Source: Sphingobacterium populi
Lineage (GTDB): Bacteria; Bacteroidota; Bacteroidia; Sphingobacteriales; Sphingobacteriaceae
Assembly (NCBI RefSeq): GCF_001586775.1
Contig: NZ_LQXS01000004.1
Coordinates: forward strand, 124,001-188,000
Length of the DNA stretch: 64,000 bases
Reading direction: 5' to 3'
The notes under the pieces were generated by a model that did not search any database, was not told where the DNA came from, and saw only the letters and a list, made by a program, of their open reading frames with translations. The translations under genes were made by a program, and so were the position numbers. Shown here one piece after another: positions 57,342 to 64,000 of this stretch (positions are counted from its first letter, which is position 1; the number at the start of each line of letters is the position of its first letter).

Positions 57342-59687
57342 ATGCTAAAAGATCAAAATACTACAGAATCAGAAGATAAGTCGATCAATGTACTTGACTT
57401 ACTGAAGTATCTTTTTTTTCATTGGAAGTGGTTTCTTCTTTCCGTATTATTCTTTGGAGGCTATTATTACTATCAATATAGTAAGACTCCGTTTGTATAC
57501 AGTAAGTCGGCCATCTTAATGGTTAAAACTCCTGAGAATACCAACGTGACAGCTCGTTTTACACGTAGCTCGATGATTAATACTATCAGTGTTGCTAGCG
57601 AAGTGCTGCAGTTAAAATCAAAAGAGTTGATGCGTCATACGATTGCTGAAATTCAGGGAGATATATCCTATTCGAAAACCGAAGGATTACGCAATATCGA
57701 GCTGTATAAAGATTCACCAATTCGAGTCAGCTTTTCGAATATTGATACGGAAGCCCGGGCATCAATGACCATTGTACCGAGAGATTCAAATACTGTAGAT
57801 TTTCTTCTGCTTGACAAAGATGATATCATTCATAGTCAAAAAGTTAAATTAAATGTTGAAACGAAAACACCTCTAGGACTTTTAACAATATCTCCTAGCA
57901 AATTTTATAAACCTTCTTTTTTTGGTGAAGAAATCTCGGTAACAAAAGTACCAAGAGAGAGTATGGTTTCGTATTTTCTTTCCAGAATGAATATCTCACA
58001 GATCGAAGAAGATGCCGGTCTGTTGCAACTTACATTAGAGGATCACTCTCCAAAAAGGGCTGTAGACCTTATTAAAACTTTAGTAGAGGTATACAACGAG
58101 CAAACCATAGAAGAAAAGAACAGAATTGCCGTTAGCACAGCCGATTTCATTCGAGAACGCATCGCTATAATTGAACAAGATCTTGGTACAGTAGAATCGG
58201 ATCTAGAGCGTATAAAAATTGATAATAGTGGCATGGATGTTAAAGACGCCGCTAGCATGTATATCACTGAAAGTAGAAGCTATTTGAATAGTAGTCGCGA
58301 ACTCGAAACACAATTGAGCCTCGCCGAAATGATGCGAGATTATATTTACGATGCTAGCAGATCTGATCGACTCATACCAACAAATATGGGATTAGCAGAC
58401 TTAAACGTAGAACGCCACATCAATGACTATAATAGTGCCCTTTTACGAAGAAATCGATTACTAGAAGGCAACAACTCCAATAATCCTGTAGTACAGGATA
58501 TCGAGCAGTCTTTAAGCTATAATAGACAAAATATTGAGCGTGCTGTTGACAATGCTATTAACGGATTGCGCATAAGGGTGCAAAATGCTCAAAGAGACAT
58601 GGAAATGGCACAAAGAGACGCCATCTCCATGCCAGCTAAACAACGGCAAGTATTGGGTATCGAAAGAAATCAGAAAGTCAAAGAAGAATTATATATTCTA
58701 CTCTTAAATAAGCGAGAAGAGAATGCCCTTAATCAGGCGACTGCTGATGATAATATTCGTGTCATTGATCCCGCATCGGGAAGTGATAGTCCTGTTTCTC
58801 CTAAGAAAATTAGAAAAATAGCAATTGGTGTCGGAATCGGATTAGCTATTCCTACCGCAATACTACTGTTAATTTTATTTTTGAATACCTCGGTGCGCGA
58901 TCGCAAAGATTTGGAAAAATCATTAACTGCACCTTTCTTAGGAGAAATACCTTTTTCCAAGAATAATAAGAAAAATGTGCATGTCGTCGTGCGCGAACAA
59001 GCCACAGATCCTGTCACAGAAACCTTTCGTATTCTGCGCACAAATATCGACTTTATGTCAAATGGTAAGAGCAAACAAGTAATTACCTTGACATCACTTA
59101 CAGAAGGCGTAGGTAAAACTTTTTGTGCGATAAATCTAGCCACGAGTTTAGCTTTTTTAAAGAAAAAGGTCGTGCTGCTGGATTTAGATCTTCGTAAAGG
59201 AACTTTAAGTGCCAAAATTAATATACCCAAAAACAAGGGAGTTAGTCATTATCTTGCCGACAGAACAGTATCACTGCAAGATATTCTTTATAAGAATGAA
59301 ATCTCGGGTATTGTCGATATAATTCCAATTGGAGTAATCGCTCCAAATCCTGTAGAACTCCTACTGAGTGATCGCTTAGACAGTTTAGTAGCAACGCTAA
59401 AAGAAGAATATGATTACATAGTAGTAGATAACGTTCCTGTAGGTGTTGTAGCTGACTCTTCAATCATAAATAGAATATCAGAACTGACCATATTTGTTAT
59501 TCGTGCTGGTAAGATGGATAAAAGACAATTACCGGAAATTGAAAATATCTATCAGCAAGGTACATTAAACAATATGGGTATAGTATTAAATGGTATTCGG
59601 AAAGGTCGTGCCGGATATGGTTACGGGTACGGATATGGTTACGGATATGGTTACGGGTATGGTTATGGATATGGAGCAAAGAAATAA
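57342..59687 (+). CDS. Wzc-like chain-length/BY-kinase protein with Tyr-Gly tail
   Basis: A 781-residue inner-membrane protein: first helix near residues 25-45, periplasmic Wzz region with coiled-coils (to about 470), second helix near 485-510, then a cytoplasmic tyrosine-kinase domain with Walker A SLTEGVGKTF near 585, Walker A' VVLLDLDLR near 608 and Walker B YDYIVVDNVP near 695. It ends in ten Tyr-Gly pairs (59616-59675) then AKK. Tyr-rich tails of Wzc are autophosphorylated and control polymer length; a strictly alternating Tyr-Gly tail probably does the same. Confidence 0.95.
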   Translation: MLKDQNTTESEDKSINVLDLLKYLFFHWKWFLLSVLFFGGYYYYQYSKTPFVYSKSAILMVKTPENTNVTARFTRSSMINTISVASEVLQLKSKELMRHTIAEIQGDISYSKTEGLRNIELYKDSPIRVSFSNIDTEARASMTIVPRDSNTVDFLLLDKDDIIHSQKVKLNVETKTPLGLLTISPSKFYKPSFFGEEISVTKVPRESMVSYFLSRMNISQIEEDAGLLQLTLEDHSPKRAVDLIKTLVEVYNEQTIEEKNRIAVSTADFIRERIAIIEQDLGTVESDLERIKIDNSGMDVKDAASMYITESRSYLNSSRELETQLSLAEMMRDYIYDASRSDRLIPTNMGLADLNVERHINDYNSALLRRNRLLEGNNSNNPVVQDIEQSLSYNRQNIERAVDNAINGLRIRVQNAQRDMEMAQRDAISMPAKQRQVLGIERNQKVKEELYILLLNKREENALNQATADDNIRVIDPASGSDSPVSPKKIRKIAIGVGIGLAIPTAILLLILFLNTSVRDRKDLEKSLTAPFLGEIPFSKNNKKNVHVVVREQATDPVTETFRILRTNIDFMSNGKSKQVITLTSLTEGVGKTFCAINLATSLAFLKKKVVLLDLDLRKGTLSAKINIPKNKGVSHYLADRTVSLQDILYKNEISGIVDIIPIGVIAPNPVELLLSDRLDSLVATLKEEYDYIVVDNVPVGVVADSSIINRISELTIFVIRAGKMDKRQLPEIENIYQQGTLNNMGIVLNGIRKGRAGYGYGYGYGYGYGYGYGYGYGAKK

Positions 59688-60202: not shown

Positions 60203-60868
60203 ATGTCAACAAAAAAGTCACATGCCCTAGTTTTGGGTGCGAGCGGACTGGTAGGTCTGCACACCACAAAAATGCTTTTACAGCAAAATACGTATGATAT
60301 AATCTATGCGGTAAGCCGACGTGGAATTCCATTTGAGCATGAAAGATTAATTCAAATTCATGCCGATTATGACACCATCGAATCTAAGCTTAAAGATATA
60401 CCTATTTATCACATTTTCAGCTGTTTAGGCTCTACAGCAAAGAAGACTCCGGATAAGGAAAATTATTTTAAAATCGATTACGAATATCCGATGAAAGTTG
60501 CTCGCTTAGCCTTAAAAAACGGTGCAACCAAATTCACCTTGGTTTCTGCCATTGGCGCCAACGCAAATTCAGGCAATTTTTATGTTGGCATGAAAGGGAA
60601 GCTGGAAGAAAGTATCATTAAGCTTAATTTTGACGAGACACATATTATGCGTCCAGCGCTGATCACTGGCGAACGTCCGGATAGTAGACCGACCGAACTA
60701 TTTGCTACTTGGTTGTTCAAAGTTCTCAATCCATTACTCATCGGGGGCCTTAAAAAATTCAGAAGTATACCGGGTAAAACTATTGCCCAAGCTTTGGTTA
60801 ACACAGCGAAAGTCAACCAACAGGGAGTATATACCTACAATACCGCACAAATAAAAGAACTAGCGTGA
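60203..60868 (+). CDS. NAD(P)-binding Rossmann-fold oxidoreductase (HTATIP2-like)
   Basis: A 221-residue atypical SDR. It has VLGASGLVGLHTTKML near residue 10 (G-x-x-G-x-x-G), FSCLGSTAKKTPDKENY near 68, and FTLVSAIGANANSGNFYVGMKGKLEE near 105-130 with the Y-x-x-x-K pair. IMRPALITGERPDSRP near 145 is typical of the HTATIP2/oxidoreductase group. Substrate unknown. Its stop overlaps the GTG of the ABC-F gene. Confidence 0.87.
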   Translation: MSTKKSHALVLGASGLVGLHTTKMLLQQNTYDIIYAVSRRGIPFEHERLIQIHADYDTIESKLKDIPIYHIFSCLGSTAKKTPDKENYFKIDYEYPMKVARLALKNGATKFTLVSAIGANANSGNFYVGMKGKLEESIIKLNFDETHIMRPALITGERPDSRPTELFATWLFKVLNPLLIGGLKKFRSIPGKTIAQALVNTAKVNQQGVYTYNTAQIKELA

Positions 60869-62730
60869 GCATATTAAGTACAGAAAAGTTAAGTCATTCA
60901 TTTCATGATCGCTGGTTATTTCGTGATTTACACTTCGGCCTGCAGTCCGGCGATCGAGTTGCATTGGTAGGTATAAATGGCACTGGCAAATCCACCCTAC
61001 TTAAGATATTAGCTGGCGTATTGTCACCAGATCAAGGCACGATAGTCGCCGAACGCGGTATTCGAATTGGATATTTGCCACAAGAGCCAGATTTTGCACA
61101 TCTTAATACGATTGAAGACTTTATATACAGTGCGGACAACAAGCAACAGCAGCTTATAAAAGAATATGAGCGATTGATAGAGCTAGATCAATGCGATGCT
61201 AATGAGCTTGGGCGCATCTCTGATGAACTTACCACGCTAAATGCGTGGGAATATGAGCATCAGATTAAAACGATCTTAAATCGCTTACAAATATCGGATT
61301 TTGATAAAAAGATATCAGCCATGTCTGGTGGGCAGCAAAAGCGACTTGCGCTAGCTAAATTGTTGATCGACGAACCCGATGTTTATATATTGGATGAACC
61401 TACTAACCACCTGGACATTGAAACAATAGAATGGTTGGAGAAACTTTTAACTTCTGGCAATAAGACCGTATTGATCGTATCTCATGATCGCTATTTCTTG
61501 GATCACGTTTGCCAAGAAATTCGAGAATTGGAAAGGGGAGAAGTTTTTCACTATAAAGGCGATTATGCAAACTTCGTTGAGAAAAAGGCCGAAAGACATT
61601 TATCTCAAGTGGCTAGCGCAGACAAAGCACGCAATTTATGGAAAAAAGAGTTGGAATGGATGCGTCGCCAACCTAAAGCACGTGGTACAAAATCAAAATC
61701 TAGAATAGAGGCATTTTACGATTTGCAAGATAAAAGTAAAGGCCCTACGGAACATGATAAAGTGCAACTAAAGATGCAGGCTTCTCGTCAGGGATCTAAA
61801 ATTATGGAGATCGACGCGGTGAGCAAATCATTTAAATCTTCTTCTATTATAACTGATTTTACATATACTTTCAAAAAAGGTGATCGTGTAGGATTGGCTG
61901 GTAGGAATGGAAGTGGAAAGTCTACGTTTTTAAATTTAATTACGAAATCACTCGAACCAGATAATGGCCACATATCTACTGGAGAAACTACTGTTATTGG
62001 ATATTACAAACAAGGCGGTTTAGATTTCAGAGAAAATCAGCGCGTTATTGATGTTGTAAAGGATGTTGCGGAGCATATAGACATGGGCAAGGATGGAATT
62101 ATCACCGCCTCCCAACTTTTAACACAATTTTTGTTTCCGCCAGAGAAACAATTTGGAATGGTTTCTAAGCTAAGTGGTGGAGAGCGTAAGCGATTGCAAT
62201 TAATGCGTGTTTTGATGCTAAATCCAAACTTTTTGATATTGGATGAGCCCTCGAACGATCTTGATATGGATACTTTAAATATTCTTGAAGATTTCCTAGA
62301 GCGTTTTCCAGGCGTTTTATTATTGGTCACACATGACAGGTATTTATTGGATAAACTTACGGATCAATTATTCATATTTGATGGCAGCGGACATGTACAG
62401 TTGTATAATGGAAATTATGCTGACTTTAAATTTGAACAGGACGAGCGGCTAAAGGAGGAGAAAAATATTAAATCAAAGGATGCAAATCAGCAAAAGCCAG
62501 CTCAAACTACACAAACCAAAAGCAAAATATCATACAAAGAAATGATTGAATTCAATTCGCTTGAGACGGATATACAGCGAATTGAAGATGAAATTACAGC
62601 ACTTTCGGGAAAACTAATGGAAGTGGAGGATCATATCGAATTAAGCAAAATAGCGCAAGATATTGATCGCTTAAAAAACGAATTAGATAATAAATCGGCG
62701 CGTTGGATCGAATTAGCCGAACTAATATAA
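60865..62730 (+). CDS. ABC-F family ATPase (Uup-like)
   Basis: A 621-residue cytosolic protein with two ABC domains and no membrane segment: Walker A GINGTGKST near residue 37, signature MSGGQQKRLALA near 152, DEPTNHLDIET, linker of about 80 charged residues, second Walker A GRNGSGKST near 347, signature LSGGERKRLQLM near 437, DEPSNDLD. A C-terminal coiled-coil (about 555-620) matches Uup, which acts on ribosomes or DNA-repair intermediates. The start is GTG 60865, overlapping the upstream stop. Confidence 0.94.
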   Translation: MSILSTEKLSHSFHDRWLFRDLHFGLQSGDRVALVGINGTGKSTLLKILAGVLSPDQGTIVAERGIRIGYLPQEPDFAHLNTIEDFIYSADNKQQQLIKEYERLIELDQCDANELGRISDELTTLNAWEYEHQIKTILNRLQISDFDKKISAMSGGQQKRLALAKLLIDEPDVYILDEPTNHLDIETIEWLEKLLTSGNKTVLIVSHDRYFLDHVCQEIRELERGEVFHYKGDYANFVEKKAERHLSQVASADKARNLWKKELEWMRRQPKARGTKSKSRIEAFYDLQDKSKGPTEHDKVQLKMQASRQGSKIMEIDAVSKSFKSSSIITDFTYTFKKGDRVGLAGRNGSGKSTFLNLITKSLEPDNGHISTGETTVIGYYKQGGLDFRENQRVIDVVKDVAEHIDMGKDGIITASQLLTQFLFPPEKQFGMVSKLSGGERKRLQLMRVLMLNPNFLILDEPSNDLDMDTLNILEDFLERFPGVLLLVTHDRYLLDKLTDQLFIFDGSGHVQLYNGNYADFKFEQDERLKEEKNIKSKDANQQKPAQTTQTKSKISYKEMIEFNSLETDIQRIEDEITALSGKLMEVEDHIELSKIAQDIDRLKNELDNKSARWIELAELI

Positions 62731-62746
62731 CGTTTCACGTGGAACA
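62731..62746 (+). promoter_or_regulatory. parS-like ParB-binding site 1
   Basis: CGTTTCACGTGGAACA matches 15 of 16 bases of the reverse complement of the Bacillus subtilis parS sequence TGTTCCACGTGAAACA. It lies directly after the ABC-F stop. Confidence 0.75.
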
Positions 62747-62755
62747 TATCAGTAA

Positions 62756-62771
62756 TGTTTCACGTGGAACA
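62756..62771 (+). promoter_or_regulatory. parS-like ParB-binding site 2
   Basis: TGTTTCACGTGGAACA is identical to the reverse complement of canonical B. subtilis parS. It is 25 bases from site 1 and 13 bases before the mnmG ATG. Recognised from the known consensus; ParB binding itself is inferred. Confidence 0.85.
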
Positions 62772-62784
62772 CAGTAAAAGAATC

Positions 62785-64000
62785 ATGTTTGATAAATATA
62801 ATGTCATAGTGGTAGGTGCGGGGCACGCGGGTTGCGAAGCAGCAGCGGCGGCAGCTAACCTAGGTTCAAAAACACTTTTAATAACAATGAATATGGGTGT
62901 TATTGCTCAAATGAGCTGTAACCCCGCAATTGGAGGCGTAGCAAAAGGGCAAATAGTTCGTGAAATTGATGCTATGGGAGGTTATACGGGAATTATTGCC
63001 GATAAATCTACTATACAGTTTAGAATGCTTAATCGCTCGAAAGGTCCAGCAATGTGGAGTCCAAGAGCACAGAATGATCGAATGAGATTTGCCGAAGAAT
63101 GGCGTTGGCAACTAGAAGACATTCCAAATTTAGATATATGGCAAGATACCGTTAAAGAACTAATAGTAGAAGGCGATACTGTGAAAGGTGTGATCACATC
63201 TTTGGGAATTAGTATTTCTTCTGATGCTGTTATCTTAACTAACGGTACGTTTCTAAACGGTACAATACATATCGGCGAAAAAAAATTCGGTGGTGGTAGA
63301 ACGGGAGAAAAAGCTGCAACTGGACTCACTGAACAACTCGTAACCTTAGGTTTCGAGTCTGGCCGAATGAAAACCGGAACTCCTCCACGTATAGATGGCA
63401 GAAGTCTTGATTACACAAAAATGGAGGAACAATGGGGAGATGACAATCCCGGTAGATTTTCCTATACAGAAGTGCAGCGCCCTTTGCAAAAACGCTGCTG
63501 CTGGATCACTTATACTAATGCAGATGTTCACGAAATACTGAAAACAGGGTTTGAACAATCGCCTATGTTCACAGGCCGTATTAAAGGCTTAGGACCAAGA
63601 TACTGCCCGTCCATAGAAGACAAAATAAACAGATTCTCTGAGCGGGATCGGCATCAAATCTTTGTCGAACCGGAAGGTTTTAGAACGGTAGAAATATATG
63701 TTAACGGTTTCTCCACATCCTTACCAGAGGAAGTGCAGCTCAAAGCACTTCGCTGCATTCCTGGTTTCGAAAAAGCTAAAATGTATAGGCCAGGTTATGC
63801 CATCGAATACGATTATTTTCCTCCGATGCAGCTTGACCTAACGTTGGAAACTCAGCGTATTAAACACCTATTTTTCGCAGGCCAAATAAATGGTACAACG
63901 GGGTATGAAGAAGCGGCAGCGCAAGGATTCGTAGCTGGTATCAATGCCCACCAACGCATCAATGATCTACAGGAATTGATATTAAAGAGATCAGAATCTT
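62785..64000 (+). CDS. mnmG: tRNA uridine-5-carboxymethylaminomethyl(34) synthesis protein MnmG, N-terminal part
   Basis: The frame runs from ATG 62785 to the window end (405 codons; the full protein is about 620). It shows the FAD-binding [18 protein letters not shown] near residue 7, [23 protein letters not shown] near 45, [12 protein letters not shown] near 155, [11 protein letters not shown] near 192 and [17 protein letters not shown] near 370. With MnmE it modifies the wobble uridine of several tRNAs. Genes of this kind (gidA) often lie near the replication origin, in line with the parS sites just upstream. Confidence 0.97.

Follow-up and report, generated by a model that had tools for sequence, protein, structure and literature searches.

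What are two nearly identical 16-base palindromes doing in the short gap in front of mnmG, and why are they found there? The sequence analysed here (hereafter, the window) is a stretch of 64,000 nucleotides that corresponds to bases 124001-188000 of contig C4 in a draft genome of 3.56 Mb (49 contigs, 95.6% complete). The locus contains the following features:

60865-62730, plus strand: ABC-F ATPase (EttA/Uup-like), a flanking gene outside the proposed centromere
62731-62746, unstranded: parS site 1, CGTTTCACGTGGAACA, with one change relative to site 2 and an intact core, GTTYCACGTGRAAC
62756-62771, unstranded: parS site 2, TGTTTCACGTGGAACA, reverse complement TGTTCCACGTGAAACA
62785-64000, plus strand, continuing past the window edge to C4:188641: mnmG (gidA), tRNA uridine-5-carboxymethylaminomethyl(34) synthesis enzyme

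The stop codon of the ABC-F gene (TAA, 62728-62730) abuts site 1, and the gap between this gene and the mnmG ATG at 62785 (positions 62731-62784) is 54 bases long, 32 of which are covered by the two sites. The sites are located 25 bases apart, start to start, differ from each other by a mismatch at the first base of site 1 only, and match the 16-base palindrome TGTTYCACGTGRAACA with 0 and 1 mismatch. These coordinates bear out the earlier note on this DNA, which had described two near-identical 16-mers 25 bases apart in the 54-base gap before mnmG, one of them the reverse complement of canonical parS and the other one change away from it. The minus-strand reading of site 2, TGTTCCACGTGAAACA, is the B. 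subtilis form of parS. The in-window part of mnmG scores 597 bits with TIGR00136, and the full mnmG ORF is present in stretch L007. Farther to the left, at 57342-59687, the window encodes a Wzc-like polysaccharide tyrosine autokinase with a series of tyrosine-glycine repeats at its C-terminus.

A genome-wide search retrieved two intact parS cores from the draft, both at mnmG; 16-mer matches with two mismatches that occur elsewhere, on contigs C1 and C8, have broken cores. Thus, the genome-wide check for the 16-mer proposed in the earlier note shows a motif that is not scattered. Given genome size and base composition, 0.00075 copies of the 14-base core are expected by chance per window and 0.042 per genome versus two observed, and a chance origin of the two sites was rejected on the latter figure. 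A scan of the window for sequences with three or fewer mismatches to the symmetric consensus returned just the two sites, at a cut-off at which 0.48 matches are expected in the window and 10 of 100 shuffled sequences reach two. Since the draft is not fully complete, another parS could be missing from it.

A single parB gene was found in the genome, on contig C6 (TIGR00180, 181 bits); the absence of parB, which had been raised in advance as evidence against the parS assignment, was thus not observed. A 266-aa ParA-like ORF located immediately upstream of parB has matches in the ParA/MinD superfamily, none of them above a curated cut-off. The parA-parB pair occupies L008:13444-15193 (contig C6 of genome G000), distant from parS, and is followed by a short gene and then by genes that, by reading, we presume to be dapB and lepB. 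In alignments, the recognition-helix region of ParB reads SKNR...TNY...LLK...GHAR, and residues at the equivalents of Caulobacter positions 173, 179, 184 and 201, counted by hand on the alignments from conserved residues, are R, Y, K and G, respectively. R173 and G201 are described as absolutely conserved in ParB, with Q and R in their place in Noc (PMC7383237). Since R and G are present at the 173 and 201 equivalents, the protein belongs to the parS-reading type; judged by its sequence, the ParB of this genome is parS-type and not Noc-type at these two key positions. The Noc-type Q/R pair was not found there, and TIGR04285 gave 239.9 bits, below its cut-off of 315. No SMC protein above the TIGR02168 cut-off was found in the draft genome (the best partial match scored 22.8 bits, and the gene may be missing from the draft), so that the usual step of condensin loading may be absent, and ParB may not load a standard condensin in this genome. 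Two gut Bacteroidetes are reported to be without recognised condensins (PMC10197239).

The earlier note had also placed the right end of the window near the replication origin. The dnaA gene shares a contig with parS and is located 15 kb to its right, and the three best DnaA-box groups of this 311-kb contig, at 191.6, 192.6 and 195.5 kb, all fall between parS (186.7 kb) and dnaA. The middle group includes two exact boxes in a gap with 73% AT content between the divergent genes nadB and nadA, and this cluster, which is a consensus match only, is the best candidate for oriC:

L007:12644-12975 (C4:192643-192974), nadB-nadA gap: oriC candidate, ca. 6 kb from parS and past the right end of the window

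Together, parS, mnmG and the DnaA-box cluster span about 10 kb. DnaA boxes in or next to the nadB-nadA gap are also seen in named Pedobacter and Mucilaginibacter relatives. On contig C4, cumulative GC skew has a broad minimum at ca. 116-160 kb, i.e., 27-70 kb to the left of parS and not at parS, and then rises.

In the genus of the window itself (g1), dnaA lies 15-20 kb from mnmG in five out of five single-contig genomes computed. In genera g2 and g3, the corresponding distance is 552-1033 kb in all six single-contig genomes computed, and in three further single-contig g3 genomes outside these six (G021, G025 and G069) it is roughly 375-600 kb, as estimated from listed coordinates. GC skew among relatives was sampled in G055, G096 and G091 only. 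In 20-kb tiles of G055, whose dnaA is 1033 kb away from parS, the skew rises from -0.051 in the tile whose centre is 13 kb left of parS through 0.002 (+2 kb) to +0.022 (+16 kb). In G096 (dnaA 1008 kb off), a negative skew at -11 kb gives way to a positive one at +49 kb, and later tiles are of either sign; DnaA-box clusters just upstream of mnmG were not above background in the G096 tile. In G091 (dnaA 929 kb away), the change of sign falls somewhere between +29 and +214 kb of parS and is less sharp than in G055 and G096.

As for the origin checks suggested in the earlier note, GC skew changes sign near parS in complete relatives, and on the window's own contig the minimum is displaced to the left; dnaA is close to parS. 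The usual, though not defining, neighbourhood of parAB and parS is absent here, since parAB is on contig C6 and parS on C4, and parB is 300-1328 kb away from mnmG in 11 single-contig relatives. With dnaA at 15 kb, the DnaA-box cluster at ca. 6 kb and the skew change near parS in complete relatives, the location of the parS region, and with it of the right end of the window, close to the replication origin is supported.

We propose, with a probability of about 0.9, that a ParABS system uses the two sites as its chromosomal centromere, inherited beside mnmG near oriC. This reading builds on what was computed here, i.e., the two sites and the finding that they are unique in the genome, the presence of ParA and of a ParB with parS-type residues, the origin signals and the conservation described below; the steps of binding, CTP clamping, sliding and segregation are drawn from established ParB biology. 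ParB is reported to bind parS, to close with CTP and to slide to neighbouring DNA (PMC8367383, PMC7053999). By analogy, ParB dimers would bind both palindromes, close into clamps on CTP and slide to flanking DNA over mnmG, and ParA would move the ParB complex, with the newly copied origin region separating first. The sites would adjoin mnmG because this gene is an old neighbour of oriC; gidA has been counted in the ancestral cluster of origin genes (PMC2099444). In the simplest history that we infer, parS, mnmG and oriC would constitute an inherited block, and dnaA and parAB would have drifted away in parts of the family.

The order sample comprised 101 genomes, all from one family, and mnmG, dnaA and parB are present in every one of them; the nearest named relatives of mnmG, from Mucilaginibacter and Pedobacter, are 75-78% identical (among records not very close to this genome), which suggests that the organism falls in or near the Sphingobacteriaceae. 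Intact cores were found in 101 out of 101 genomes (one in 4 genomes, two in 87, three in 9 and four in 1), and at least one parS is located just upstream of mnmG in each. Where upstream DNA was read (60 genomes and the window), at least two sites with two or fewer mismatches are present in 61 of 61 sequences; in the other 40 genomes, for which listed coordinates were used, a site lies no more than 500 bp upstream in all 40, and two sites do so in at least 37. Cores known away from mnmG are the third core of G028, 12 kb off, and one in G053, 17 kb off. Site conservation was scored in 60 genomes (G011, with one core at one or fewer mismatches, was dropped). Core positions have 1.8-2.0 bits, with ca. 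1.0 at two Y/R positions, and flanking positions have less than 1 bit, except for 1.3 at the edge of site 2. The two sites are spaced 20 to 234 bases apart, and 6-38 bases separate the end of the near site from the mnmG ATG, with one case of 87. Since the cores are nearly invariant, while the spacing and the distance to the ATG are variable, selection acts on two ParB sites and not on spacing or reading frame. A fixed helical phase between the sites was rejected on the same range of spacings.

At the level of the phylum, an intact core is present in 274 of the 296 genomes sampled, and 22 are without one. A composite pattern describing a core closely upstream of mnmG, which is blind to downstream sites and gave 0 matches in a reversed control, matched 71 of the 296 genomes (15 of 139 genera). 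For 20 representatives of 20 families, chosen with mnmG coordinates listed and the places of the sites not, a core was found within ca. 0.6 kb of mnmG in 18, often downstream only (examples of the latter arrangement are G101, G102, G117, G375 and G278); in the other two, G112 and G274, no core was found within 5 kb of mnmG. In the six genomes of family f4 with listed sites (G200, G204, G215, G265, G301 and G312), mnmG has sites on either side. The sole site of G261 is 26 kb away from mnmG, and in G136 the site is on a different contig.

Named loci were the best 80 from a GTDB scan with 588 matching stretches. In 59 of these best 80 Bacteroidota loci, a core lies 700 bp or less from mnmG, in some cases downstream or on both sides, versus 0.0013 cores expected by chance over all 80 flanks together (1400 bp per locus). 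No core was found in the examined stretch of 21 loci, which are mostly Saprospiraceae/Lewinella relatives, Runella, Larkinella, Fibrivirga, Dyadobacter and some Chitinophagaceae. Flavobacteriaceae mostly have one parS just upstream of mnmG and another just after it; in L261, L265, L267 and L271 from this family, the end of the matched stretch is followed after ca. 17-19 bases by the downstream site. In L242, L252, L266 and at G116:C1:1086926, the coding sequence of mnmG itself contains an intact parS core, near base 370-381. The GTDB records L242 and L280, titled Azovibrio and Limnohabitans, have Bacteroidota-like mnmG loci, and these titles look wrong. DnaA boxes were compared in the 64 of the 80 named loci that have 7 kb on both sides. 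Groups with a score of at least 6 occur downstream of mnmG in 15 loci and upstream in 2 (four permuted boxes gave 0 or 1), and the group often lies ca. 2.5 kb past mnmG. Over the 80 named loci, local GC skew in 10 kb on each side of mnmG gave no signal, the mean difference being -0.005.

What, then, keeps parS beside mnmG? Shared descent explains much of the durability of this arrangement, and the shifts of the site between upstream, downstream and internal positions leave room for a functional tie to mnmG. Constraints on parS position are reported to be hundreds of kb wide (PMC5098823, PMC5815017), about 650 kb in P. aeruginosa (PMC5098823), and therefore do not account for parS sites that lie no more than about 100 bp from a single gene in many families. 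One could imagine that, across Bacteroidota in the wide sense, it is mnmG itself, and not just the origin region, to which the centromere is tied. Copies would be lost and re-created upstream, downstream and inside the gene, yet remain at mnmG in dozens of families, either because segregation is served by ParB clamps that slide over mnmG or by traffic through mnmG, or because ParB loading is coupled to mnmG dosage. We consider such a tie rather unlikely; if it were true, the parS-mnmG address would locate the origin better than dnaA.

It is quite unlikely that the sites also, or mainly, function as an operator, at which ParB, bound ca. 13 and 38 bases ahead of the start codon of mnmG, would repress or tune this gene. 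Such a role would agree with the location of the sites directly before the start codon, with the nearer cores, which end 6-30 bases before the ATG in 58 of the 60 scored family genomes, and with a report that expression in P. aeruginosa fell when an artificial parS was placed upstream of a promoter; the same source, however, reports that genes next to parS were unaltered by the loss of Spo0J in B. subtilis (PMC7022226). Spacing and ATG distance are unconstrained in the family, and no clear promoter was found in the 54-base gap, since promoter scans gave scores no better than those of shuffled sequences, with none within the gap on the coding strand. Upstream placement is not conserved either, and because in other families the sites are downstream only, two-sided or internal, a conserved operator role at mnmG is unlikely; an effect of ParB loading on mnmG transcription, which the earlier note had suggested, is a slim possibility in this species. 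The distribution of the sites argues that proximity to mnmG, and not promoter control, is what is kept.

Two other possibilities were rejected as highly improbable. There is an ATG at 62755 in frame with mnmG, and if the gene started there, site 2 would be coding (MFHVEH), but an in-frame ATG at -42 is found only in the window among 61 upstream stretches, the start at 62785 (-12) is at a conserved place in 60 of 61 genomes (the exception, G058, has no ATG there), and the distance from site to ATG is not kept in frame among genomes. Other operators also have a CACGTG centre, and the palindromes might be parS look-alikes that bind a CACGTG-type regulator or Noc, but the full 14-base core is present in every one of the 101 family genomes alongside a ParB-family gene over the cut-off, and the genome's own ParB has parS-type residues at both key positions.

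The locus is thus best read as a ParABS centromere of the ordinary kind, whose arrangement with mnmG and oriC is unusually durable. While parS sites and ParABS are well known already, and a survey of parS sites in bacteria reportedly appeared in 2007, no description of parS beside mnmG was found in the openly licensed literature, and an earlier report is possible, for example, in subscription papers. The durability of the parS-mnmG address may be the new part: the arrangement is kept across much of the phylum, even where other origin genes moved by up to a million bases, and it provides a sequence-only landmark of the origin in many Bacteroidota, in which dnaA can be about 1 Mb away.

The parS sites of B. 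subtilis, C. crescentus and P. aeruginosa share with those described here the 16-base palindrome, the clustering of copies, the origin-proximal location and the presence of encoded ParA and ParB. Here, in contrast, the genome-wide set consists of two sites beside mnmG, parAB is remote, and no SMC above the cut-off was found. In E. coli, mnmG (gidA) borders the replication origin, and mioC and gidA are described as well-conserved genes surrounding oriC (PMC4446571); mnmG is near oriC here, too, but it is parS that borders mnmG, and the oriC candidate is some 4 kb past the mnmG end and not adjoining. The origins of gut Bacteroidetes were mapped by Hi-C, GC skew and parS in a study whose main text mentions neither gidA nor mnmG by name and in which no gene address of parS was found (PMC10197239). 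There too, parS clusters and GC skew are reported to mark the origin, with which dnaA need not coincide.
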